A stretch of 64,000 bases of DNA from contig CASDTX010000015.1 of the NCBI GenBank assembly GCA_949283695.1, positions 59,862 to 123,861 on the forward strand. The letters run 5' to 3'. The number at the start of each line of letters is the position of its first letter. Position 1 is the stretch's first letter. Positions 798 through 42,723 of this stretch are shown here, piece by piece. Source of the stretch: an uncultured Eubacteriales bacterium (GTDB taxonomy: Bacteria > Bacillota > Clostridia > Lachnospirales > Lachnospiraceae). A program made the position numbers and the translations under genes. The notes beneath the pieces were generated by a model that worked only from the letters and a program-made list of their open reading frames with translations, made no database searches and was not told the origin of the DNA.

Positions 798-1790
798 TTA
801 CTCTGCATAGAGTCTGTAAATCTCCGGATCCACCACTTCCCGGATCTCCTCATACACAGGCTCGGCCGCCTGGATCATCTGCTCTCTGACCTCATCTTCC
901 AGCGCAATGATCTCTGTTCCGCTGTCCCTGATCGTCTGAATTCTGTCGTCGATCCTCTCATCAGACTGCGCCCTCGCGTATTCCTTCGCGATGGCCTCTG
1001 CTTCGATGAGAATCTGCTGATCTTCCTCTGAAAGTTCTGAGAAGAAGGATTCACTCACCACCAGCGAAATCAGGTGGGGCACATGGTTCGTCTCAATGAT
1101 ATAATCCTGCTGCTCATAGAGCCGGTTGGATACAATCACCTCGTAAGGATTCTCCTGCGCGTCAATGGTATGCTGCTGAAGCCCGATGTATACTTCACTG
1201 AAATTCATAGGCGTCGGGTTCGCTCCCAGCTCCTTCCAGAAACTGAGCTGATAGGCATCCTCCATGGTACGGATCTTCTGCCCTTTGAAATCCGCGAACT
1301 CTGTCACCTCTCTGTTTGTTGACATCACGCGGAACCCCTGGTCTGCGTATCCCAGCAGCTCGAATCCTGCCTCCCGGTAAGACTCCTTGATCTTCTCCAG
1401 AAATTCCGGCTGGTCCACCGTCTCTCTGACCGCCTCGATATCCCCGAACACACAAGGAGCGTCGAAAACTGCCGTATCATCAATAAAGCTGACCTGCGGC
1501 GCTGTATTCTGGATCACAAACGGGATATCTCCGTCATAACAGCTTTCCAGAAGTTCACGGTCGCCGCCGAGCACGCTGTTCGGGTAGACGTTGATCTTAA
1601 TTCTGCCTTCACTCAGCCGGTCTACTTCTTCGGCAAATTTCTCCGCGTAAATCTGGGTCACTGTATCCTCCGGGCTGGCCGTTCCCAGCGGGTATGCATA
1701 ACGCTGCTCTCCGTCATCGGCAGAACACCCTGCAAGGATGCCGGCGGCAACAATCACGGCGGCGGCGAATCTATAGGTTCTCTTTCTCAT
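798..1790 (-). CDS. dctP: TRAP transporter solute-binding lipoprotein, DctP family
   Basis: This 330-residue extracytoplasmic receptor belongs to a tripartite ATP-independent periplasmic (TRAP) transporter and captures an organic acid for the membrane subunits. It has a lipoprotein signal peptide with lipobox LAGC (Cys22), as expected for a Gram-positive receptor. DctP signatures include the segment KIRTMED with the arginine that normally salt-bridges the ligand carboxylate, then NFSEVYIGLQQHTIDAQENP. The start has an AAGGAGG site (GAAGGAGGCAGTT ATG). It is the last gene of the operon, 41 bases after dctM. Carriage with aroD and a ydiB-like gene suggests quinate, shikimate or a related hydroxy-cyclohexane acid as ligand. 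This is inference, since TRAP ligands cannot be read from sequence alone. Confidence 0.93.
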   Translation of the reverse strand: MRKRTYRFAAAVIVAAGILAGCSADDGEQRYAYPLGTASPEDTVTQIYAEKFAEEVDRLSEGRIKINVYPNSVLGGDRELLESCYDGDIPFVIQNTAPQVSFIDDTAVFDAPCVFGDIEAVRETVDQPEFLEKIKESYREAGFELLGYADQGFRVMSTNREVTEFADFKGQKIRTMEDAYQLSFWKELGANPTPMNFSEVYIGLQQHTIDAQENPYEVIVSNRLYEQQDYIIETNHVPHLISLVVSESFFSELSEEDQQILIEAEAIAKEYARAQSDERIDDRIQTIRDSGTEIIALEDEVREQMIQAAEPVYEEIREVVDPEIYRLYAE

Positions 1791-1831
1791 AACTGCCTCC
1801 TTCTGTCCTGATAATTACACCCAACCTGTCA

Positions 1832-3121
1832 TCACAGCAGCACCAGGCTGACCGCCGGAACAAATGTGATCACCAGCAGCGCCGCAAGGAAATACAGAAT
1901 CATCGGCATCGCGTGCTTCGCGACCTGCATCAGCGGCACTTCGGTCAGCGAGCTGGCGACGAACAGATTGACCCCGATGGGCGGTGTGACGAAACCGATG
2001 GCCAGATTCACGACCATCATCACGCCAAAATGAATGGGATCCATGCCGATGGACTCCACGATCGGAAGCAGGATCGGCGTCAGGATCAGAATTGCCGGCG
2101 TTGTGTCCATCACCATTCCAACGATCAGCAGGAATGCATTGATCACAAGAAGCAGCACCACAGAATTCGTGAAATGCGACAGGATCCAGCCGCTGATCGC
2201 CTGAGGAACCTGCATCAGAGTCAGCACTCTTGAAAATGCGATCGCCGATGCAAGGATAAAGAGGATCGGCGTATAGGTACGGATCGCTTCGACCAGAATC
2301 CCCCAGATATCCCTGACCCGTATCGTTTTATAGATCAGCATGCTGATCAGCAATGCATAAAACACCGAGATCACTGCCGCCTCCGTCGGAGACGCGATTC
2401 CAGTATAGATGCACCCGAGGATAATCACCGGACTCAGCAGGGCGAACGCACTGTCTTTGAGCACCTTGATCAGGCCTTTCTCGTGAAGCGCGCCGACTAC
2501 GACCATCTTTTTCTTCTGATCTTCTCCGTTCTTCTTACAATAATAAAAGGCATACACCATCAGCAGAGCACCGATCAGAAGCCCCGGGATAATACCTGCG
2601 ATAAACAGATCGCTCACTGACGCCCCGGAGGCAGAACCGTACATGATAAACGGGATACTCGGCGGGATGATCACGCCAAGTCCTCCTGCCACTGCGACCA
2701 GCGCGGTGGTAAACCGTTTCTCATATCCCATCTCCACCAGAATCGGTATGGTCATACTTCCCACTGCCGCCACAGTCGCCGGTCCAGACCCGGATATGGC
2801 TCCATAGAACAGACAGGTCACAATCACCGCACAGGGCATCCCTGCCGTCCGCTTTCCCATAAAGTACGCGAACACATCAAACAGCTTCCTGGAGATGCCG
2901 CCCCGGGCCATGATGATTCCAGACAGCACGAACATCGGAACTGCCAGCAGCGGGAAGCTGTCAAGGCCTCCCAGCATGGAGCGGATCACATAGGTCGCAC
3001 TGGCCGTGAACGACGGGTCCACGGCGCCCGGAAGCACAGAGACGATCCCAAGAGAGATGGAGACCGGGATCGCGATTACCAGGCAGATTACAAATATCAG
3101 AAACAAAACAACTGCCGGCAT
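1832..3121 (-). CDS. dctM: TRAP transporter large permease, DctM family
   Basis: This 429-residue large membrane subunit catalyses the sodium-driven transport step of the TRAP system. It is almost entirely hydrophobic, consistent with about 12 membrane segments. DctM family features include GGISRKLFDVFAYFMGKRTAGMPCAV, the glycine-rich SGSGPATVAAVGS, PPSIPFIMYG and GFVTPPIGVNLFVA. A longer frame runs to 3208, but the start is placed at 3121 because a strong site (GGAAAGGGGGAGAACTGAG) lies immediately upstream and the sequence then begins directly with the first membrane helix. The ATG is one base past the dctQ stop, so the two are probably translationally coupled. Confidence 0.94.
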   Translation of the reverse strand: MPAVVLFLIFVICLVIAIPVSISLGIVSVLPGAVDPSFTASATYVIRSMLGGLDSFPLLAVPMFVLSGIIMARGGISRKLFDVFAYFMGKRTAGMPCAVIVTCLFYGAISGSGPATVAAVGSMTIPILVEMGYEKRFTTALVAVAGGLGVIIPPSIPFIMYGSASGASVSDLFIAGIIPGLLIGALLMVYAFYYCKKNGEDQKKKMVVVGALHEKGLIKVLKDSAFALLSPVIILGCIYTGIASPTEAAVISVFYALLISMLIYKTIRVRDIWGILVEAIRTYTPILFILASAIAFSRVLTLMQVPQAISGWILSHFTNSVVLLLVINAFLLIVGMVMDTTPAILILTPILLPIVESIGMDPIHFGVMMVVNLAIGFVTPPIGVNLFVASSLTEVPLMQVAKHAMPMILYFLAALLVITFVPAVSLVLL

Positions 3122-3122
3122 C

Positions 3123-3632
3123 TCAGTTCTCCCCCTTTCCTCTGATCGTCTGGAATTCCACGATCCAGCGCTGCAGCACACGAACCGCGGACAAAGTAAA
3201 TCCCACAAGCGGGGCCGCCTGTAGAAAGTACATGGGGATCCCCATTGCAGGGCTGGTCTGTCCGTTCGCTGCTGCGGACATCAGATATTTCCATGCGAAG
3301 GGAAGCAGGTAGACGAATAAAATCAGCTCAAATGTATGATTCACTACTTTGAATACTGCTTTCCCCCGCCTTGGGAAAATTGCCACGAACTGTTCGATCT
3401 TAATCGAGATGCATCTCTTCGTACAGTAGCTGACGCTCAAGAACCCTACCCAGATGAAAATATAACGGGTCAATTCTTCCGACCAGGACAGAGACGCGCC
3501 CAGCACATACCGGCAGAATACCTGTACACCCATGATGACTGCCATGGCGGCCAGGGCCGCCACAAGCAGTACCTCTTCCAGATACTCATCTATCCAGTTC
3601 AATACCTTTCTCACCATAACAGTCTCCCGCAT
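3123..3632 (-). CDS. dctQ: TRAP transporter small permease, DctQ family
   Basis: This small membrane subunit of the TRAP transporter has four predicted helices. Family features are WSEELTRYIFIWVGFLSVSYCTKR and the charged region after it. Two starts are possible. The ATG at 3632 overlaps the aroD stop as TAATG. The ATG at 3617 (MVRKVLNWIDEYLEE) is preceded by GGGAG at a better distance. Either way, dctQ follows aroD without a gap, which ties the transporter to the dehydroquinase in one transcript and is the main argument that the TRAP ligand belongs to the quinate/shikimate group. Confidence 0.92.
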   Translation of the reverse strand: MRETVMVRKVLNWIDEYLEEVLLVAALAAMAVIMGVQVFCRYVLGASLSWSEELTRYIFIWVGFLSVSYCTKRCISIKIEQFVAIFPRRGKAVFKVVNHTFELILFVYLLPFAWKYLMSAAANGQTSPAMGIPMYFLQAAPLVGFTLSAVRVLQRWIVEFQTIRGKGEN

Positions 3633-4393
3633 TATAAGCTCTTATGAAGGAGACTCAGCACGGTCTTCAGGTCCTCTGCCCCCATCTGTCCCGGTGCAGA
3701 AGCTTTTCCAACTGCTCCGAATGTCAGAGCGGAGCCGAACACCTCTCCGCAGAGACGGCTGATCACGCCTGTTCCTGACATGGACATTGTGATAATGGGA
3801 CGGTCCGCATACTCTGCCGCCATCTCTTCTGTGGCAGAGAGAAGGGTGAGCACGTCTTTTTTACTCTGCGGCATTACCGCGATCTTGGGGATATCCGCGC
3901 CCAGCTCCTGCATTCTGCGCAGACGGGATACGATCTCGTCTTTGTCAGGAGTTTTATGAAAATCATGGTTGGAAGCCACAACCTTAACCCCGCACGCATG
4001 AGCGGTCTCTACCACTGCTTTCACAGCTTCATCCCCGGTAAACGCCTCAATATCCACCAGATCGATCAGACCGGTCTTCGCCGCGTTCTGGTTCAGCTCC
4101 ACATACGCGTCTGTCTCAATCGCTTTCTCTCCGCCTTCTTTTGACGTGCGGAAAGTAAACAGAATCGGAGTCTCTCCCAGTACTTCTCTGAGTGCTTTCA
4201 TGGTCTCTTCTGTCTTCGCGAAGTCAAAAATATCCTCATACCAGTCCACGCGCCATTCTACAACGTCTGCCGCTGTCGTCCGAATGGTCTCTGCAGCTTT
4301 CAGGATTTCTTCTCTTGTGACACCGACAATGGGCACACAGATCTTCGGGATACCTGTACCGATTTCTACATTTCTTACTTTTACGGGATTCAT
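3632..4393 (-). CDS. aroD: Type I 3-dehydroquinate dehydratase
   Basis: This 253-residue type I dehydroquinase interconverts 3-dehydroquinate and 3-dehydroshikimate through a Schiff base. All catalytic positions of the well-studied enteric enzyme fall at the same numbers: E46 and R48 (EWR), R82, H143 (SNHDF), the Schiff-base lysine K170 (DIPKIAV), R213 and Q236. It has a strong AGGAGG site. In biosynthetic clusters aroD usually sits with aroB, aroC or aroK, but here its partners are a YdiB-like dehydrogenase, an MFS carrier and a TRAP transporter. I therefore infer a catabolic role (quinate to dehydroshikimate), while the reaction itself is certain from sequence. Confidence 0.97.
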   Translation of the reverse strand: MNPVKVRNVEIGTGIPKICVPIVGVTREEILKAAETIRTTAADVVEWRVDWYEDIFDFAKTEETMKALREVLGETPILFTFRTSKEGGEKAIETDAYVELNQNAAKTGLIDLVDIEAFTGDEAVKAVVETAHACGVKVVASNHDFHKTPDKDEIVSRLRRMQELGADIPKIAVMPQSKKDVLTLLSATEEMAAEYADRPIITMSMSGTGVISRLCGEVFGSALTFGAVGKASAPGQMGAEDLKTVLSLLHKSL

Positions 4394-4414
4394 TCTGATT
4401 TCCTCCTAACCTTT

Positions 4415-5596
4415 TTATTTTCCTGCGTTTTTCAGCAGTACGCCGTATTTCATATTCACGAACAGCGCCAGTACGATTCCGATCACTGTGATCACAATAT
4501 TCATCATAATTACACCGGAAGCAGTCATATTCGAAGCCGCTGTCAGGATCGTGTAGTTGCAGAGACTGGACGCGATCATAACAAGGCTTGTCAGTGTTCC
4601 CTTAATCTTCGGGAACAGATCATTTGCAACAGCGGTCACCATCTGAAGAACTCCGCCGGCTCCCGCATATCCGACTACGAACGCACCTACATAGCAGATC
4701 ATCGGACTCTTGATCAGGTATACAAGCACCAGCATCACCAGGGAGATCACCGGATAGATCACCAGGAAACGTACCTGCTTGAACTTCGTAATCAGGATAC
4801 TGGTAATAAACAGAGCCACCAGTGTTCCCGCAGAGTAATAGGTCTGCATCATGGAAACATCCTCAGACGCAATTCCAGCCACCTGGGTACCGAATGTCTG
4901 CGCACAGTTCAGCCACAGCTGGAACGTAGCCGTACATGTGAATCCTATCAGAATCAGGGCAACACTTTCAACTGAAAAATGTGCATTTTTCAAATTATCC
5001 AGGAAGGACTCGCCCTTGCCCACGCCTTCAACCTTCGGCAGCGGAGCGAAGATGGCAAGTACACCCAGAACCGCGATCGCGATACCGCAGACCAGAGGCA
5101 GCGTCAGGTAAGACATTGAAGTTCCCACACACAGTCCAAGGAAGAACGGCATCAGGAGCTGCGCAACAGAGATAAACAGCTTGATTCCCATGGTCGCAAT
5201 ACCTGTATATTTGTAAATAATCTCTGCAACCGCCGGATAGGTGGCTGTATCAAGGAAGGAGTTCGCGATGCCTCCGAGGACCGCCGCCACATAAGCGATG
5301 GACATGCTCGGCGAGAATGCGATTCCCACGAAGAAAATTACATAAGATGCACAGCCGATCAGCACAGAAATCCTTCTTCCGAACTTATCAGACATGGGAC
5401 CCGCGAAGGGCAGTGATATCAGACGTCCCAGCCCCAGAGCCGCCGCCACAGCAGTAACACCCATAACATCAGACATGCCCCACTGCTCTGCCAGAAGTTC
5501 TTTCACGAGCTGCTGGCTTAAGATTGAACAGCCGATGCCGTGGATAAAATAGTTTAAATAAAGGATCAGCGCACTGGGCAGATATTTTTTATTCAT
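4415..5596 (-). CDS. MFS transporter, probable quinate/shikimate-type carrier
   Basis: This 393-residue Major Facilitator Superfamily protein has about 12 hydrophobic segments. The loop 2-3 signature GPMSDKFGRRISVLIG is clear, with the related motif weaker in the second half. The ribosome site is GAGGGAGACGAATT ATG. It lies 32 bases downstream of the ydiB-like gene and 21 bases upstream of aroD. Position suggests a proton-coupled importer of quinate or shikimate, or an exporter of a reduced end product, with the TRAP system doing the other job. Specificity cannot be read from sequence. Confidence 0.88.
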   Translation of the reverse strand: MNKKYLPSALILYLNYFIHGIGCSILSQQLVKELLAEQWGMSDVMGVTAVAAALGLGRLISLPFAGPMSDKFGRRISVLIGCASYVIFFVGIAFSPSMSIAYVAAVLGGIANSFLDTATYPAVAEIIYKYTGIATMGIKLFISVAQLLMPFFLGLCVGTSMSYLTLPLVCGIAIAVLGVLAIFAPLPKVEGVGKGESFLDNLKNAHFSVESVALILIGFTCTATFQLWLNCAQTFGTQVAGIASEDVSMMQTYYSAGTLVALFITSILITKFKQVRFLVIYPVISLVMLVLVYLIKSPMICYVGAFVVGYAGAGGVLQMVTAVANDLFPKIKGTLTSLVMIASSLCNYTILTAASNMTASGVIMMNIVITVIGIVLALFVNMKYGVLLKNAGK

Positions 5597-5628
5597 AATT
5601 CGTCTCCCTCTTCTCTCTCTATGGTTTC

Positions 5629-6504
5629 TTATTCGTATTTAATATCCAGTACTTCTTTCATATGATCGATCGGCATATGCTTTCCTGTCCACAGATAGAA
5701 TGCCGCGTCTCCCTGGAAGAGCATCATTCCAAGGCCGTTCATAGTCTTGCAGCCTGCTTCCTTCGCCATCTTAAGCAGAGCCGTCTCCCGCGGAGCGTAG
5801 ATCGTATCTGTCACGATCAGATCCGGGCGGAAGAATGACTTGTCCGGAATCACGGACATGCCTTCCAGCGGTTTCATGCCCACGCCTGTCGCCTGTGCGA
5901 AGAGATAACTGTCCGCGATCTCTTCTCTTAACTTCTCTTTATCTTCCAGATCATAGAGATTCACCACACAGTCTGTATTGCTGCGGATCGTCTCGACCGT
6001 CTGCTCTGCTGCTTCCCAGAATTTATCCTTGATATTGAAGATGGACATCTCTTTCACTCCGTCCAGCGCGGCCTGAACCTCGATTGCTTTCGCGGCACCG
6101 CCTGCCCCTGTGATTGTCATCTTCTTCCCGATCACGTCGATATTGTTATCTTTCAGTGACTGCATGTAACCGATTCCGTCTGTAATATGTCCGATCAGTT
6201 TTCCGTTGTCATTTACGATCGTATTGACCGCGCCGCACATCTGAGCTGCCGGGGAAAGCTCGTCCAGGTATTTGCCCACAACGGTCTTGTTCGGCATGGA
6301 TACATTGGAACCTACCATCTTTAATGCGCGCAGACCTTTGACCGCGTCTTCCAGAGTGCTGTTGTCAACCTCGAATGCAAGGTACGCATAGTCCAGCCCC
6401 AGTGCTGCGAATGCTTCATTATGCATTGCCGGTGAACTTGAGTGTCTGATCGGATATGCCATCAGACCGATTAATTCTGTGTGTCCTGTGATTCTTTCTG
6501 CCAT
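5629..6504 (-). CDS. ydiB: Quinate/shikimate dehydrogenase, YdiB-like AroE family
   Basis: This 291-residue member of the shikimate dehydrogenase family resembles enteric YdiB more than AroE: LIGLMAYPIRHSSSP at the N-terminus, LKMVGSNVSMPNK with catalytic Lys73, GAVNTIVND, TDG with Asp109, and the C-terminal pattern AGCKTMNGLGMMLFQGDAAFYLWTGK. YdiB oxidises both quinate and shikimate, using NAD or NADP. Two details stand out. The usual NTDG motif reads ITDG. The loop after the dinucleotide fold (SIFNIKDKF) lacks the NADP-binding arginine of AroE (NRT/NRR), suggesting NAD use. The gene leads the operon and has an AAGGAG site. It faces a LysR gene across a 260-base regulatory region. Confidence 0.93.
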   Translation of the reverse strand: MAERITGHTELIGLMAYPIRHSSSPAMHNEAFAALGLDYAYLAFEVDNSTLEDAVKGLRALKMVGSNVSMPNKTVVGKYLDELSPAAQMCGAVNTIVNDNGKLIGHITDGIGYMQSLKDNNIDVIGKKMTITGAGGAAKAIEVQAALDGVKEMSIFNIKDKFWEAAEQTVETIRSNTDCVVNLYDLEDKEKLREEIADSYLFAQATGVGMKPLEGMSVIPDKSFFRPDLIVTDTIYAPRETALLKMAKEAGCKTMNGLGMMLFQGDAAFYLWTGKHMPIDHMKEVLDIKYE

Positions 6505-6627
6505 GATTTTTCTCTCCTTTTTCTCTCTGTGCTCTTCTTAATCTTCTTAATATAGAAGGCAGTCCTTTGTGATCGTCCGGCTCTGTGAGCCTGGGGCCCG
6601 CATATTTTTATGCCGCACCCGTTTGTT

Positions 6628-6645
6628 AAATATCAAACAATCTCT
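6628..6645. promoter_or_regulatory. Motif shared with the flavoenzyme promoter region (copy 1)
   Basis: AAATATCAAACAATCTCT lies in the divergent region between the ydiB-like gene and the first LysR gene. A near-identical string, AAATATCAAACAACTCTCT, occurs at 8653-8671 upstream of the 2-enoate-reductase-like gene. The surrounding GTTAA is also shared (GTTAAATATC here, GTTAATCAAATATC there). This looks like a common regulator site linking the two transcription units. Confidence 0.45.
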
Positions 6646-6701
6646 ATGCTTTAATTATACGGCATTTCATGTTATACTTCTAATATATCTTTTATCGTTT
6701 T

Positions 6702-6722
6702 TTGATAGCTTTATACTATCAA
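6702..6722. promoter_or_regulatory. LysR-type operator
   Basis: A perfect 7-bp inverted repeat, TTGATAG-N7-CTATCAA, contains ATAG-N7-CTAT and fits the T-N11-A rule for LysR regulators. It lies 44 bases upstream of the LysR start and within the region divergent from the ydiB operon, the classical position for autoregulation plus control of the divergent operon. The second LysR gene has a similar site at 8561-8577. Confidence 0.6.
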
Positions 6723-6765
6723 TAATAGGACTGCCATTGTGCATAATATACGCAGGAGGATTTTC

Positions 6766-7650
6766 ATGACATTGAATCAGCTTACTTATTTTCAGACAGT
6801 CGCGCACTGTCAGCATTTCCGTCTTGCCGCGGCCCGGCTGAATATTTCTCAGCCTTCTTTAAGCCGCTCCATTGCCAACCTGGAGGAGGAGCTGGGAATT
6901 ATCCTATTTGAACGCCACGGGCGCACAATCTCCCTGACAAAATACGGACGTATCTTTCTGGAACACACAGAACGCATCCTCTCGGAGGTAAGTCTGGCGG
7001 AAAAGCAGATGAAAAAACTGGCCGGCAGTGCCGGCCACGTTGATATTGCTTATGTATTCCCGCTGGCTTCCCACTATATTCCGCACATGGTCCGGCGCTT
7101 CTTAAGCAGGGGCCGCAATCAGGACATTACGTTCAGTTTCCATCAGAGCCATACCGCAGATCTGATCACCGGGCTGAAAGCCGAGCGATACGATGTCATC
7201 TTCGGTTCCTATGTGGAAAATGAGCCAGATATTCAGTTCATTCCCATCCTCAGCCAGGAGATGATCATCATCACACCGCTTGGGCATCCCCTCGCCTCCC
7301 GGAAGGATCCGGGCCTTCATGATCTGGAACACTATCCGATCATCGGCTATGACAAAACCTCCGGGCTTGGTCAGTTCACCCGGCGCACCTATGCTTCCTA
7401 CTCGCTTCAGCCGGATATCATCTGCGAATCTCCCGATGAGAACGCCATTGCCTCTCTCGTGGCAGAGAATTTCGGCATTGCCCTTGTGGCAGATGTGGAT
7501 GTCCTTTCCCATTTCCCGCTGGAGAAACTGCATCTGACAGACGTCAAGCTGCGGCACACCGTATATCTTGCCTATCTGAAAGGGCAGTATCAGATTCCTG
7601 CGGTGAAAGATTTCATTCACTTTATCCGCAAAGAGGGCGCGAATCTTTAG
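6766..7650 (+). CDS. LysR family transcriptional regulator
   Basis: This 294-residue LysR regulator has an N-terminal winged helix-turn-helix (MTLNQLTYFQTVAHCQHFRLAAARLNISQPSLSRSI) followed by a substrate-binding effector domain. The ATG at 6766 is chosen over a GTG at 6739 because AGGAGGA lies just before it and LysR proteins start at this residue. It is divergent from the ydiB-MFS-aroD-TRAP operon and is therefore its likely activator, with a pathway intermediate as probable coinducer. Its stop overlaps the stop of the next, convergent LysR gene by 4 bases. The two regulators are paralogous but clearly diverged. Confidence 0.93.
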   Translation: MTLNQLTYFQTVAHCQHFRLAAARLNISQPSLSRSIANLEEELGIILFERHGRTISLTKYGRIFLEHTERILSEVSLAEKQMKKLAGSAGHVDIAYVFPLASHYIPHMVRRFLSRGRNQDITFSFHQSHTADLITGLKAERYDVIFGSYVENEPDIQFIPILSQEMIIITPLGHPLASRKDPGLHDLEHYPIIGYDKTSGLGQFTRRTYASYSLQPDIICESPDENAIASLVAENFGIALVADVDVLSHFPLEKLHLTDVKLRHTVYLAYLKGQYQIPAVKDFIHFIRKEGANL

Positions 7651-8528
7651 ACTCTGCTGCGCTTCACGTACCTGGAGAAGTGTTCCGCCACAGGCGGCTG
7701 ATATTTCCCCTTTGGCCTGGCCATATACACATACCGCTTCTGCTCCAGGTTCTTAAGCTGCAGCACATCTACTTCCAGCTGATTCAGAATCGGGATCTCC
7801 GGCATCACGGCGATCCCGAACCCCTGAGCGATCAGCCCTGCCATAGCCCCGTCCTCCTCGATCTCACAGACGATCTGCGCATGGATCTTAGCCTGCCGGA
7901 ACAGCCTCTCTATCATCGGACGCAGACCGCTGTTCCTCGTATAGAAGATCTGCGGATATGCCGCCGTCTGCTCCAGATCTACAGACGTCCTGACTGAGAG
8001 CGGATGTCCTTTGGGCACTACCACGACCAGATTCTCGGTCCCCACAGCGGTAAATTCGATCTCTTCTTCCTGCTCCGGCATAGAGCAGAATCCGACATCA
8101 AAGCGCTCTTCCTTCAATCCCTGTATAATCTCTGACGTATTTCCCACCGTGAAATGGAACTGAACATTCAGTTCTTCGTTTGCCCGGATGAAATCTCTGA
8201 CAATCTGAGGAACAAAACTCGTTCCTAAGGTATAAATGTAAGCCAGCTCTATCACTCCTTCTGTCTGTCCGGTTAAGCTCTGTACCTTCCGCACTCCCGT
8301 ATCCAGAATACGGAGCGATTCTTCCGCATATTCCCGGAAGAGCTTTCCATATTTGGTCAGCACAACGCCCCGTCCCTGCTTCACGAACAAAGGAGCTCCC
8401 AACTCTTCTTCCAGACATGCGACGGCATGGCTTAAGGTCGGCTGAGAGATATTAAGTTCCCCCGCCGCTTTCGTGTAATGTTCCTCCTCTGCCAATCTGC
8501 AGAAGTAACGAATTTGATTTAGATTCAT
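7647..8528 (-). CDS. LysR family transcriptional regulator (second copy)
   Basis: This 293-residue LysR protein begins MNLNQIRYFCRLAEEEHYTKAAGELNISQPTLSHAVACLEEELG, a standard helix-turn-helix. The effector domain follows. The start at 8528 is set by AGAGGTGATT upstream and by family length; an upstream in-frame start at 8558 lacks a site. It is divergent from the flavoenzyme gene at 8736, so it probably controls that gene and itself. An ATAG-N7-CTAT operator sits at 8561-8577, directly in its own promoter region. It is convergent with the first LysR gene. Confidence 0.93.
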   Translation of the reverse strand: MNLNQIRYFCRLAEEEHYTKAAGELNISQPTLSHAVACLEEELGAPLFVKQGRGVVLTKYGKLFREYAEESLRILDTGVRKVQSLTGQTEGVIELAYIYTLGTSFVPQIVRDFIRANEELNVQFHFTVGNTSEIIQGLKEERFDVGFCSMPEQEEEIEFTAVGTENLVVVVPKGHPLSVRTSVDLEQTAAYPQIFYTRNSGLRPMIERLFRQAKIHAQIVCEIEEDGAMAGLIAQGFGIAVMPEIPILNQLEVDVLQLKNLEQKRYVYMARPKGKYQPPVAEHFSRYVKRSRV

Positions 8529-8560
8529 ATAATCACCTCTTTTGATAAAATAGCACAATT

Positions 8561-8577
8561 TATAGATGTTTTCTATA
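8561..8577. promoter_or_regulatory. LysR-type operator
   Basis: TATAG-N7-CTATA is a perfect inverted repeat, followed by a second CTAT half-site about 8 bases on. The core ATAG-N7-CTAT is the same as in the site at 6702-6722. It lies between the second LysR gene and the flavoenzyme gene. Confidence 0.55.
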
Positions 8578-8652
8578 GATTTCTATAAAAATATTTATTT
8601 GTTTTATGTATCGTTTTTCTTTATAATACGCATTGTAAACGGATCGTTAATC

Positions 8653-8671
8653 AAATATCAAACAACTCTCT
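8653..8671. promoter_or_regulatory. Motif shared with the ydiB promoter region (copy 2)
   Basis: AAATATCAAACAACTCTCT matches 6628-6645 with one inserted base. It lies about 65 bases upstream of the flavoenzyme start codon, in promoter range. It supports common regulation of the flavoenzyme and the ydiB operon. Confidence 0.45.
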
Positions 8672-8735
8672 TAACCCACTGACCCCAATTACCGGACACA
8701 GAAATTTCTATTAATAAAATAGGAGATCCATTATT

Positions 8736-10736
8736 ATGAGAAAAGAATACAAACATATTTTTGAACCTTTCACTGTCCGCCGCATGACCGTAAAGAACCG
8801 GATTATGATGACGCCAATGGGAACAAACTACGGCGAACAGAGCGGTGAAATGAGTTTTCTTCATATTAATTATTATGAGCAGCGCGCAAAGGGCGGCACA
8901 GGCCTGATCATCGTTGAGAATGCCAGCGTTGATTCTCCGGAGGGCTCCAACGGAACCACACAGCTGCGCATTGACCACGACAACTATATTCCCCGTCTGT
9001 TCAAGCTGACGGAGACCGTCCACAAACATGGCGCCTGTATCGGCATCCAGCTGAATCATGCCGGAGCGTCTGCACAGTCTGCCCGCACCAACATGCAGCC
9101 TGTCTCTGCGTCCGACATCCCGTCGAAAGAAGGCGGCGAGATCCCCCGTCCTCTGGAAAAAGAGGAAATCATGCGCATTGTGAAAAAATATGGAGAGGCA
9201 GCCAAGCGCGCACAGACCGCAGGCTTCGACACGGTGGAGATCCACGCCGGCCACTCCTATCTTCTGAGCCAGTTCCTGTCCCCGCTCACCAATAAGAGAA
9301 CCGATGAATTCGGCGGTTCCCCGGAAAACAGGGCCCGGTTCGCACGTCTCGTTCTGGAGGAAGTCCGCCGCCAGGTAGGCCCCTTCTTCCCCATCTTCCT
9401 GCGCATCAGCGCGGATGAGTTCCTGGAAGGCGGCAACACACTTGACGACTGTCTGGAATACCTGCAGTACATGCAGGAAGAAGCAGATGTGCTGGATGTA
9501 TCCTGCGGACTGAACGGATCGATCCAGTATCAGATTGATGCCAATCATTTCCCGGACGGGTGGAGGTCTTACATGGCCCGCGCCGTGAAGGAACGGTTTG
9601 GCAAGCCTTGTGTGACAATGGGAAATATCCGCAGCCCGAAAGTGGCGGATGATATCCTGGCAAGGGGGGATGCAGATCTGATCGGTATCGGGCGCGGGCT
9701 CATCGCAGATCCGGAATGGGTAAACAAAGTTGATTTCGGAAATGTGTGCGATATCCGGAAATGTATCTCCTGCAACATCGGCTGCGCCGGAAACCGAATC
9801 GGCATCAACCGCCCGATCCGCTGTACCGTGAACCCGGCCGTACCGGACGGAGAAGTCTACAAGAAGCGGAAAATCACAAAGCCCTGTAATGTCGTAGTTA
9901 TCGGCGGCGGCACTGCCGGCATGGAGGCTGCCTGCACGGCTGCTGAAGTCGGATGTACCACATTTCTGCTGGAAAAGAAGCCTTATCTGGGAGGCCTTGC
10001 CGCTGAAATCTCCAGGATTCCGGACAAGAAGCGGCTCTCCGACTTCCCGAACTATCTGATCCACCGCACAAATAAGCTGCGTAATCTGTTCTCTTTCACC
10101 AATATGGAAGCAGATGTGGAGTTCATTAAGAGCTTAAAGCCGGATGTCATTGTCAATGCGACCGGTTCCTCCCCGCTCCTGCCGCCCATAAAAGGCCTTC
10201 TGGAGAACATTGACCGGGCCGGAAGCAAAGTATCATCGATCCTGAACATGATCGAACATGTACAGGAGTACCCGCAGGATCTGACCGGCAAGAAAGTCGT
10301 TGTCATCGGCGGCGGCGCTGTCGGACTTGACGTTGTAGAATTCTTTGCACCGAGAGGCGCGGAAGTGAGTATCGTGGAAATGATGCCTGTCATTGGAAAC
10401 GGCATTGACCCGGTATCGAAGGTGGATATCAATACACTGATGAAGAAGTATCATGTACGGCAGATGCCCAACACAGCGCTTCAAGAAGTCCGCTCCGACA
10501 GTTTCCTCGTAGAGACAGCCGACGGAGAGCAGGAATTATCGTTTGACTATGGGTTTGTATGCCTGGGTATGAAAGCAGTGCATCCCGTGCTTCAGCAGCT
10601 GAAAGACGCTTTTGAAGATGACAGCCATATCGAGATTGTCAACATCGGCGACAGTGTCCGTGCCAGAAGAATCATCGAAGGGATCGAGGAAGGAAGAAAC
10701 ATCCTCAATACACTGGAGAAACGCGGATATCTCTAA
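8736..10736 (+). CDS. 2-enoate reductase-like NADH:flavin oxidoreductase (FMN, 4Fe-4S, FAD)
   Basis: This 666-residue multidomain flavoenzyme belongs to the 2,4-dienoyl-CoA reductase/2-enoate reductase/BaiCD-BaiH group. Residues 1 to about 340 form an Old Yellow Enzyme TIM barrel for FMN, with EIHAGHSYLLSQFLSPLTNKRTDEFGGSPENRARF. Four cysteines, C343, C346, C350 and C363 (CX2CX3CX12C), bind a 4Fe-4S cluster. The C-terminal half has two dinucleotide folds (VVVIGGGTAGMEAA and VVVIGGGAVGLDVVEFF) for FAD and NAD(P)H. Such enzymes reduce a C=C bond conjugated to a carbonyl or carboxylate in anaerobes. In this context 3-dehydroshikimate, an enone and an enoate at once, is an attractive substrate. 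Cinnamate-, bile-acid- or dienoyl-CoA-type substrates remain possible. The site AGGAGA precedes the ATG. Confidence 0.92.
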   Translation: MRKEYKHIFEPFTVRRMTVKNRIMMTPMGTNYGEQSGEMSFLHINYYEQRAKGGTGLIIVENASVDSPEGSNGTTQLRIDHDNYIPRLFKLTETVHKHGACIGIQLNHAGASAQSARTNMQPVSASDIPSKEGGEIPRPLEKEEIMRIVKKYGEAAKRAQTAGFDTVEIHAGHSYLLSQFLSPLTNKRTDEFGGSPENRARFARLVLEEVRRQVGPFFPIFLRISADEFLEGGNTLDDCLEYLQYMQEEADVLDVSCGLNGSIQYQIDANHFPDGWRSYMARAVKERFGKPCVTMGNIRSPKVADDILARGDADLIGIGRGLIADPEWVNKVDFGNVCDIRKCISCNIGCAGNRIGINRPIRCTVNPAVPDGEVYKKRKITKPCNVVVIGGGTAGMEAACTAAEVGCTTFLLEKKPYLGGLAAEISRIPDKKRLSDFPNYLIHRTNKLRNLFSFTNMEADVEFIKSLKPDVIVNATGSSPLLPPIKGLLENIDRAGSKVSSILNMIEHVQEYPQDLTGKKVVVIGGGAVGLDVVEFFAPRGAEVSIVEMMPVIGNGIDPVSKVDINTLMKKYHVRQMPNTALQEVRSDSFLVETADGEQELSFDYGFVCLGMKAVHPVLQQLKDAFEDDSHIEIVNIGDSVRARRIIEGIEEGRNILNTLEKRGYL

Positions 10737-40938: not shown

Positions 40939-42723
40939 TTATGACTCTGTAAAATAGACGGGTCTGTCCCTGGTAGGAAGTGCTTCCGGAAAGATCCCTT
41001 CTGTCTCGAATATGACAATCTCGTTCCTTCCTTTGTGAAGAAATACACCGGGAACGTACAGATAGCCCACAGGCCCTCTGTTCCAGTATCTTCCGATATT
41101 CCGCCCATTTACGAAAACGCAGCCCTTCCCAAAACTTCTCAGATCCAGAAATGTATCCCGGGGCCTCTCTGCCAGAAGTTCATATCTGAGAAATACCGGC
41201 ATCTCATCTGTGCATCCCTCTCCGTCAGCCTCAAATGGAATCCCGCTGATCTCCTTCAGATCCAGTGCATATTGCTCCCAGCCGCTCTCGAAATGAATAT
41301 CCACCATCACGCCGCCCCAGATTCCTTTCTTCTGAGTCGGTGCTGCCAGCCGGGGGCCGTAGTTGACCCGCCCCAGATTCTCCGCAAGGATCTCCAATAC
41401 GTTCGTCCCTCTCCGGAATTCCATTGTGATTTCCTCGCCGATCTCATCGCCGCACTGCGCAGCGATATAAGTTCCGTTCAGATAGATCTTCACACGGTCC
41501 CCGGCCCGGACCACTTTCACCTTCATCAGAGCGCCGAAGCCTTCCACTTCCGTCCGGTACAGGATATAGCCATACCCGCTCCCCGCCTCTTCCATCGGCA
41601 TGGGGTGCGCACTGTTCTGCCGTATACTCAGTCTGTCCAGACAGCTTCTCAGAGAAGCGCTTCCGGTGAGCGGCGCCGCGTCATACCCGGCACGGGATCT
41701 GTCCCGGGGCGGAAGCGTCTCCTGCTCCGGGAATCGTTCATGGACTGCCTCCTGTATCCGATAGAACTTCTCCGTCGGTTCGCCCCACTCTGTAAGCACT
41801 GCGTCATAATCGTATGACGTAATCTGCGGAAGTTCTTGGTCGCCGTTTGCAGAACAGCCGTTATAGAACCCGAAGTTCGTGCCGCCCTGGAACATATATA
41901 GATTCACAGACGCCCGCTGAAGTACAGCCTTCACTTCTTCCGCCGCGTCTCTGGCGTCTCGCCGGATCACAGCCTCTCCCCAGCAGTTAAACCACCCGTC
42001 CCAGAATTCCATGCACATCAGGGGCAGTTTCTTGCCGTGCTTCTCCATAAAACGCTCCAATGCGTCCAGATTCTCCGCGGAGCCGGAGCCAAAATTAACC
42101 GTCGGCAGAACCCCGTCCTCAATCAGGCTTCCCGCCTCCAGCGCAGCATCCCACCCGCCGTCTGAAGTAAACAGCTCCACACTGGCGCCGCACTCTCTCA
42201 TCATGCGCACGAGAGCTCTGAGGTAAGACTTCTCATTCCCATACGATCCATACTCATTCTCCACCTGCATCATCAGCACCGGGCCGCCCTCTGTGATCTG
42301 AAGGCTCTTGATTCTCGCAAAGAGAACCTCATAATACGCCCGCACCTTCGAAAGGAAGAGAGGATCCTCCGTCCTTACCTTCAGATCCGGATACCGCAGA
42401 AGCCATGCCGGAAGCCCGCCGAACTCCCATTCCGCGCAGATATAGGGAGCCGGCCGCAGAATTACCCACAGTCCCATCTTCTGAGCCAGCCGCACGAACG
42501 CTTCTACATCCTTCTCCTCAGAGAAGTCAAAGACTCCTTCTTCCGGTTCGTGCAGATTCCATGGAATATAAGTCTCCACTGTGTTAAACCCCATGGCCTT
42601 CAAATTATACAGCGTGTCTTCCCAATACTCCCGGGGAATGCGGAAGTAGTGGACCGCCCCTGACAGGATCCGGAACGGCCTGCCGTTCAGCAGGAACTCT
42701 TCCCTTATTTCAAATGTATTCAT
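40939..42723 (-). CDS. Beta-galactosidase, glycoside hydrolase family 35
   Basis: This 594-residue GH35 enzyme has the TIM barrel at residues 1 to about 330: ILSGAVHYFRIPREYWEDTLYNLKAMGFNTVETYIPWNLHEP, the acid/base glutamate in MMQVENEYGSYG, the nucleophile glutamate in MCMEFWDGWFNCWG, and FQGGTNFGFYNG. Two jelly-roll type domains follow. There is no signal peptide, so it acts in the cytoplasm on an imported galactoside and feeds galactose to galK/galT. It is transcribed with kduD and kduI, suggesting pectic or galactan-type side chains as substrate. Confidence 0.95.
   Translation of the reverse strand: MNTFEIREEFLLNGRPFRILSGAVHYFRIPREYWEDTLYNLKAMGFNTVETYIPWNLHEPEEGVFDFSEEKDVEAFVRLAQKMGLWVILRPAPYICAEWEFGGLPAWLLRYPDLKVRTEDPLFLSKVRAYYEVLFARIKSLQITEGGPVLMMQVENEYGSYGNEKSYLRALVRMMRECGASVELFTSDGGWDAALEAGSLIEDGVLPTVNFGSGSAENLDALERFMEKHGKKLPLMCMEFWDGWFNCWGEAVIRRDARDAAEEVKAVLQRASVNLYMFQGGTNFGFYNGCSANGDQELPQITSYDYDAVLTEWGEPTEKFYRIQEAVHERFPEQETLPPRDRSRAGYDAAPLTGSASLRSCLDRLSIRQNSAHPMPMEEAGSGYGYILYRTEVEGFGALMKVKVVRAGDRVKIYLNGTYIAAQCGDEIGEEITMEFRRGTNVLEILAENLGRVNYGPRLAAPTQKKGIWGGVMVDIHFESGWEQYALDLKEISGIPFEADGEGCTDEMPVFLRYELLAERPRDTFLDLRSFGKGCVFVNGRNIGRYWNRGPVGYLYVPGVFLHKGRNEIVIFETEGIFPEALPTRDRPVYFTES

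Follow-up and report, generated by a model that had tools for sequence, protein, structure and literature searches.

The gene cluster considered here spans positions 798–10736 of a 64,000-nucleotide stretch (hereafter, the window) of contig CASDTX010000015.1, from an uncultured bacterium of the family Lachnospiraceae, and joins an operon for the predicted import and oxidation of quinate and shikimate to two LysR-type regulators and a multidomain flavoenzyme of the 2-enoate reductase class. It is probably (at a probability of roughly 0.6) a shikimate-responsive cluster for hydroaromatic acids with a reductive branch, and both the linkage of the flavoenzyme to genes of this type and the regulation of the cluster lend good support to a reductive role in quinate/shikimate metabolism, the chemistry being a prediction. 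All the genes that an initial annotation, made from the sequence alone, had named in this region are present and intact according to open reading frames and profile searches: the operon with its YdiB-like dehydrogenase, major facilitator superfamily (MFS) carrier, 3-dehydroquinate dehydratase and full tripartite ATP-independent periplasmic (TRAP) transporter, the regulator pair, and the 666-residue flavoenzyme. The window is part of a 2.9 Mb assembly that is 79% complete, and the absence of a gene from this genome is thus weak evidence.

Linkage of the flavoenzyme to quinate and shikimate genes

The flavoenzyme gene (8736–10736, plus strand) has orthologs encoding proteins 85–92% identical in nine metagenome assemblies, most of which are named Mediterraneibacter and several of which carry chicken-derived names. 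The order YdiB, regulator a (LysRa), regulator b (LysRb), flavoenzyme is kept in all seven of these nine close relatives in which enough contig is available, and the outer neighbours of the cluster in the window (ThiC, GlyA and an ATP-binding cassette protein) are matched in none of the nine. In a wider sample of 299 Lachnospiraceae genomes, one per genus, orthologs were accepted at E ≤ 1e-150 and found in 24 genera, the window genome included. AroD lies within 10 kb of the flavoenzyme gene in 16 of these 24 genomes, and AroD, YdiB or a shikimate-kinase/chorismate-mutase fusion lies within the same distance in 21. Of the remaining three, G202 (G and L numbers are our labels for genomes and loci) has the gene 1.3 kb short of a contig end, G163 has it at a contig start, and in G005 it is broken. 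The last of these genomes lacks AroD, and its ortholog (locus L065, 1743–4992) has three in-frame stops, an apparent case of module decay. A class-wide sample of 391 genomes gave six with a match, the window genome and five from other families, and in all five YdiB or AroD is found within about 4 kb of the flavoenzyme.

Overall, the flavoenzyme is linked to shikimate-type genes in 26 of 29 genomes, so that the co-occurrence with the operon in relatives on which the initial annotation had staked its proposal is borne out. The gene orders vary, and include TRAP-AroD-MFS beside LysR-flavoenzyme-YdiB, AroD-YdiB-flavoenzyme, a doubled flavoenzyme-YdiB-MFS, kinase-flavoenzyme and others; linkage on this scale across so many arrangements rules out a chance neighbourhood. 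The association was also seen from the side of AroD, in 40 AroD neighbourhoods from 38 genomes, comprising the 39 best-scoring ones outside the window genome and a lower-ranked second copy (in G148) that was chosen by the authors. The flavoenzyme occurs somewhere in the genome in 12 of 12 genomes with TRAP, MFS and AroD together and in 3 of the remaining 26 (Fisher p = 1.7e-7, with kinship ignored); when the chosen G148 copy is left out, the contrast becomes 11 of 11 against 4 of 27. ThiC and GlyA, which flank the cluster in the window, are present in none of the 40 neighbourhoods. These data support the assignment of the flavoenzyme to the quinate/shikimate gene set. The term ‘island’ used in the initial annotation is apt for a conserved module, but not for a segment of foreign composition, which is ruled out by a guanine-plus-cytosine content of 0.512 in the cluster against 0.513 in the whole window. 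One further locus (L055, 1993–10713) holds in a single run two YdiB-like genes, an MFS carrier, a shikimate-kinase/chorismate-mutase fusion, a TIM barrel and members of both flavoenzyme clades described below.

Regulators, enzymes and the predicted pathway

The two LysR regulators lie between the operon and the flavoenzyme gene. LysRa (6766–7650, plus strand) is divergent from the operon, and LysRb (7647–8528, minus strand) is divergent from the flavoenzyme gene. For both, the best match of known structure is 5ted (Lmo0488), which we take to be QuiR with bound shikimate, the regulator of the Listeria quinate/shikimate genes. LysRb matches it at 7.5e-46, with the next structure at 2.4e-26 (a lead of about 19 orders of magnitude), and LysRa at 1e-39, with the next at 3.2e-25 (about 14 orders), whereas the one control LysR, taken from an AroD neighbourhood devoid of the flavoenzyme, gave no 5ted match at 1e-5. 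The effector domains of both regulators are homologous to that of Lmo0488, and their sequences support a placement of LysRa and LysRb among the relatives of QuiR. A 13-mer, AAATATCAAACAA, is common to both divergent promoter regions, and forms part of putative operator 1 (GTTTGTTAAATATCAAACAA, 6621–6640, plus strand), between ydiB and lysRa, and of putative operator 2 (8643–8665, plus strand), between lysRb and the flavoenzyme gene. It occurs exactly twice in the 64 kb against a mean of 0.00 in 100 shuffles, a significance to be read as after the fact, given that the element was spotted in the alignment before it was counted. Operator 1 is also conserved among genus-level sequences, with at most two changes in eight of eight and full identity in five of eight. 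A scan for promoter sites gave 12 against 9.3 expected (standard deviation 3.4) and adds nothing. The simplest reading of these sequence features is that a single shikimate-sensing circuit would govern import operon and flavoenzyme alike.

The operon itself runs on the minus strand with intergenic gaps of −1 to 41 bases. Its TRAP transporter is formed by the solute-binding protein DctP (798–1790; PF03480, 254.9 bits; TIGR00787 above cut-off; closest solved relative 7bbr at 1.4e-44), the large permease DctM (1832–3121; PF06808, 361.8 bits; ATG start checked) and the small permease DctQ (3123–3632; PF04290, 112 bits). In order of position, next come the type I 3-dehydroquinate dehydratase AroD (3632–4393; PF01487, 282.9 bits; TIGR01093, 262.6 bits against a cut-off of 139.3), the MFS carrier (4415–5596; PF07690), with identities of 30.6% to YdiN and 32.1% to YdiM, and the YdiB-like quinate/shikimate dehydrogenase (5629–6504). 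The latter is nearer to E. coli YdiB (48.4% identity) than to AroE (26.8%), exceeds the cut-off of NF001313, and falls 10 bits short of the YdiB-specific model NF009390 (339.4 bits against 349). Its segment NIKDKFW aligns with NRRDEFF and retains the Asp in the NAD (nicotinamide adenine dinucleotide) motif that is presumably typical of YdiB. The window genome holds, elsewhere, a second AroE/YdiB-like gene whose product is 48.4% identical to the window YdiB and has the same NAD motif. It follows a second TRAP set at locus L053 (899–8058), and its neighbours resemble, by translation only, an enolase-type dehydratase, a 2-keto-3-deoxy-6-phosphogluconate aldolase and a sugar kinase.

In alignment, AroD shows 57.5% identity with its E. 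coli counterpart and retains the motifs NHDFHKTP and PKIAVMPQS with the catalytic His and the Schiff-base Lys, as the initial annotation had stated; it is, by these motifs and by family score, a type I dehydroquinase. The view of AroD as a purely catabolic enzyme did not survive comparison among genomes. No other type I dehydroquinase accompanies the linked AroD in 12 of the 16 genomes with a linked set, and no type II enzyme (AroQ) was found in any of 22 genomes tested, which include 14 of those 16 (all but G118 and G287) and the window genome, whose 79%-complete assembly yielded no dehydroquinase other than AroD. Chorismate synthase (AroC) is present in 22 of 22 genomes tested, the same 14 linked ones among them, and dehydroquinate synthase (AroB) in 16 of 16 linked genomes. 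Since 10 of the 14 linked genomes tested for both types showed no dehydroquinase besides it, with AroC and AroB present, the linked AroD most likely also serves aromatic biosynthesis, as aroD does in E. coli.

The flavoenzyme is formed by an Old Yellow Enzyme (OYE) domain (PF00724), a four-Cys motif and a pyridine-nucleotide/flavin adenine dinucleotide (FAD) domain (PF07992). Together with the fold of the predicted structure, these agree with the class named in the initial annotation, that of the multidomain ene-reductases with a flavin mononucleotide (FMN) barrel, a 4Fe-4S site and an FAD/NAD domain. The same plan is found in clostridial 2-enoate reductase, BaiCD, 2,4-dienoyl-CoA reductase and 2-naphthoyl-CoA reductase, but the window protein is only about 25–29% identical to the solved or E. 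coli K-12 members of the class and has a conserved loop of its own at about residues 264–277. In an alignment of 38 rows (one locus having entered twice, as L063 and L076), Cys343, Cys346, Cys350 and Cys363 are retained and invariant or nearly so, as are His170, His173 and Tyr175, which occupy what we take to be the positions where OYEs bind and protonate the substrate. Residues Q264, Q266, D268, D274, W276 and R277 are near-invariant within the flavoenzyme's own clade and differ in four proteins of a second clade and in FadH. The predicted structure has a mean confidence (predicted local distance difference test) of 89.4, and its best fold matches are 2-naphthoyl-CoA reductase and 2,4-dienoyl-CoA reductase, followed by amine dehydrogenases. 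The first four of these six residues fall within a low-confidence loop (260–275) that may close like a lid on a polar acid. According to PMC5882074, which describes clostridial 2-enoate reductases, unsaturated free carboxylic acids are not substrates of classical OYEs, which fits with an enone or 2-enoate type of mechanism for the window enzyme. On linkage, domains and fold, it is predicted to reduce the C=C bond of 3-dehydroshikimate or shikimate, with both substrate and direction inferred.

In the pathway proposed, quinate and shikimate would be imported by the TRAP system and the MFS carrier, and oxidised at C3 by YdiB with NAD+ to 3-dehydroquinate and 3-dehydroshikimate, respectively; AroD would then dehydrate dehydroquinate to dehydroshikimate. 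The flavoenzyme would pass a hydride from NADH through FAD, the 4Fe-4S centre and FMN to the ring C=C bond of dehydroshikimate (or shikimate), to yield a saturated ring acid. Such a saturation would close both routes by which dehydroshikimate could become aromatic, namely dehydration to protocatechuate and dehydrogenation to gallate, which would lead nowhere in a cell lacking ring-cleaving oxygenases. The initial annotation had noted that oxygenases of the protocatechuate type are absent from the window, and this extends to genomes: the intradiol ring-cleaving dioxygenase family PF00775 was found in none of 16 (the window genome and 15 relatives), and the aerobic protocatechuate path is thus not indicated. 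As for the redox-balanced electron sink suggested earlier, the balance holds and the sink is conditional: the sequence from quinate through dehydroquinate and dehydroshikimate to the saturated ketone is redox-neutral as drawn, and net uptake of electrons would occur only if the ketone is reduced as well, or if the substrate is shikimate and the end product dihydroshikimate. With reduction of the ketone to dihydroshikimate, by YdiB or another dehydrogenase, the net uptake would be 2 H per quinate or shikimate.

Ring-opening clusters and known systems

In some genera the gene set appears to reach further. In G148 and G036, an operon of TRAP, MFS, AroD and flavoenzyme genes extends into genes for a xylose-isomerase-type TIM barrel, two zinc dehydrogenases, a creatininase-family protein, a 3-hydroxy-3-methylglutaryl-CoA (HMG-CoA)-lyase-like protein and a GntR regulator, and G179 carries the same ring-opening enzymes in a different order. 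The extensions of these three genera lie at L052 (11408–17318), L066 (9601–15365) and L038 (3753–8831), with the GntR regulator in two of the three. In G148, the creatininase-family protein belongs to IolN (3-dehydro-scyllo-inosose hydrolase), scoring 534.3 bits on the equivalog model NF041098 against a cut-off of 245. Relatives of this hydrolase at 90% identity or more were found only in 3 of 26 genomes (those of G036 and G179 being 90–94% identical to that of G148), with weaker ones in five. The IolN-type hydrolase, the zinc dehydrogenases and the TIM-barrel isomerase-like and HMG-CoA-lyase-like proteins could open the saturated ring. On chemical grounds, oxidation of reduced dehydroshikimate at C5 would give a cyclic 1,3-diketone of the kind that IolN opens, whereas the same oxidation without prior reduction of the C=C bond would yield gallate; this gives a clear logic for the reductase. 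As no ring-opening hydrolase was found in the window genome, at 79% completeness, the window organism probably carries a short version of the pathway that excretes its product.

From these elements a more specific proposal can be drawn, tentative and somewhat short of probable. In this proposal, the flavoenzyme would be a 3-dehydroshikimate ene-reductase, the first for which a gene is named, and would commit quinate and shikimate to a breakdown that is non-aromatic and needs no oxygen, with saturation preventing aromatisation; some genera would proceed through C5 oxidation, IolN-type opening of the diketone and an aldolase cut by the HMG-lyase-like protein, and the window organism would excrete a reduced hydroaromatic acid as its electron sink.

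The extended clusters are reminiscent of the Thermotoga-type IolM-IolN-IolO inositol path, which likewise has an IolN-family hydrolase, zinc dehydrogenases and a TIM-barrel protein, but they differ in that their dehydrogenases are below the IolM cut-off and in that the operon includes AroD, the flavoenzyme and the HMG-CoA-lyase-like protein. In E. coli K-12, ydiN-ydiB-aroD form an adjacent trio like the MFS, YdiB and AroD genes of the window, whose products are 31, 48 and 58% identical to them; unlike the window, the annotated neighbours within 20 kb include neither TRAP nor flavoenzyme genes, and the locus continues instead with ydiF, ydiO and genes of electron transfer flavoprotein type. The Listeria qui genes (the QuiR regulon) share with the window the kinship of the regulators, and lead from quinate or shikimate to protocatechuate. 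Some relatives resemble them in having a Lmo2234-like TIM barrel, but no such gene was found in the window genome (it is present in 8 of 27 genomes). The flavoenzyme of these side clusters, about 31–33% identical to that of the window, is the second clade, which stands with the Lmo2234-like TIM barrel, YdiB and MFS genes in G102, G263, G104 and G556, in what is presumably part of the Listeria type of qui genes. At three such loci (L023, 1966–8468; L030, 9715–16526; L067, 5871–18730) a 458-residue membrane-like protein is also encoded, and its L023 copy has no match in Pfam or NCBIfam.

It has long been known that quinate and shikimate, which reach the gut in quantity via fruit, coffee and leaves, are reduced or fermented by anaerobes, lactobacilli and hydroaromatic fermenters, and the formation of saturated hydroaromatic acids without oxygen is the likeness to be expected between those organisms and the window bacterium. 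To our knowledge, the genes of a non-aromatic route, the reductase included, have seemingly not been named, and no ene-reductase tied to quinate or shikimate genes was found in the titles and abstract openings of the open-licence papers searched. There is a fair chance that the cluster names this missing reductase of anaerobic hydroaromatic metabolism. If so, a gene is given to the missing step of an oxygen-free breakdown of plant acids, in which hydrogen is added to the ring and no aromatic product is formed. Microbial cyclohexane-carboxylates are aromatised by their hosts to hippurate, and the origin of these compounds becomes directly testable through the cluster, which supplies named candidates across many genera and, in three of them, a possible full set for ring opening.

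Alternative explanations

The same genes might instead be used for salvage, with AroD and the dehydrogenase channelling imported quinate and shikimate into chorismate and the aromatic amino acids, and with the flavoenzyme minor or unrelated. This is rather unlikely: although AroD is the sole dehydroquinase found in 10 of the 14 linked genomes in which both types were sought, AroB and AroC occur as well, and a shikimate-kinase/chorismate-mutase gene is near the flavoenzyme in many loci, salvage leaves without a role a protein that is a constant partner across gene orders and has a QuiR-like regulator of its own. Reduction of a hydroxycinnamate, e.g. caffeate freed from chlorogenate, in co-regulation with use of the quinate half, would suit both the clostridial members of the class, annotated as cinnamate and 2-butenoate reductases (PMC5882074), and chlorogenate as the compound that unites caffeate and quinate (PMC12248444, the accessible portion of which yielded nothing on quinate reduction). 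It is likewise unlikely, in that the annotation of the window's cluster genes includes no cinnamoyl esterase and the flavoenzyme remains with YdiB, AroD or shikimate kinase even at loci lacking transporters.

More improbable still is an enzyme that runs oxidatively and desaturates or aromatises a hydroaromatic acid, in the manner of the bile-acid enzyme BaiCD. Aromatisation of dehydroshikimate is chemically possible, and BaiCD (NF041087) is the best-scoring NCBIfam model, but the score of 467 bits is far under the cut-off of 825, which rules out BaiCD itself as the identity of the protein. The two nearest folds are those of reductases, though amine dehydrogenases come next, and an aromatic product would meet no intradiol dioxygenase in any of the 16 genomes.

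Several observations weigh against the reductive quinate/shikimate cluster in the form proposed. On the side of regulation, the ATATCAAACAA half of operator 2 is complete in only three of the eight genus-level sequences, a longer 18-mer form of the element is not common to the two promoters, and the exact promoter pattern is present in 5 of 79 loci, all from the window's own group. As to linkage, the shikimate and transport genes searched for are all missing around an extra ortholog of G036 (L056), while another copy in that genome has such neighbours, and locus L012 has no TRAP genes beside AroD. At L057, L058, L060 and L061, from four Lachnospiraceae genera, the neighbour of the flavoenzyme is a shikimate-kinase/chorismate-mutase gene and not AroD or YdiB, so that a prephenate- or chorismate-like substrate is possible. 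Relatives of the enzyme use cinnamates, bile acids and acyl-CoA as substrates. Where AroD is the sole dehydroquinase, a drain on dehydroshikimate would compete with biosynthesis. For ring opening, the zinc dehydrogenases of G148 reach 183.5 and 191.5 bits against the IolM cut-off of 450, and the HMG-CoA-lyase-like protein 229.4 bits against a best-fitting cut-off of 246.

Outside the cluster, the window carries at 40939–44576 genes that resemble, as named by translation, those for beta-galactosidase, KduD and KduI, possibly a set for the use of plant cell walls (pectin).

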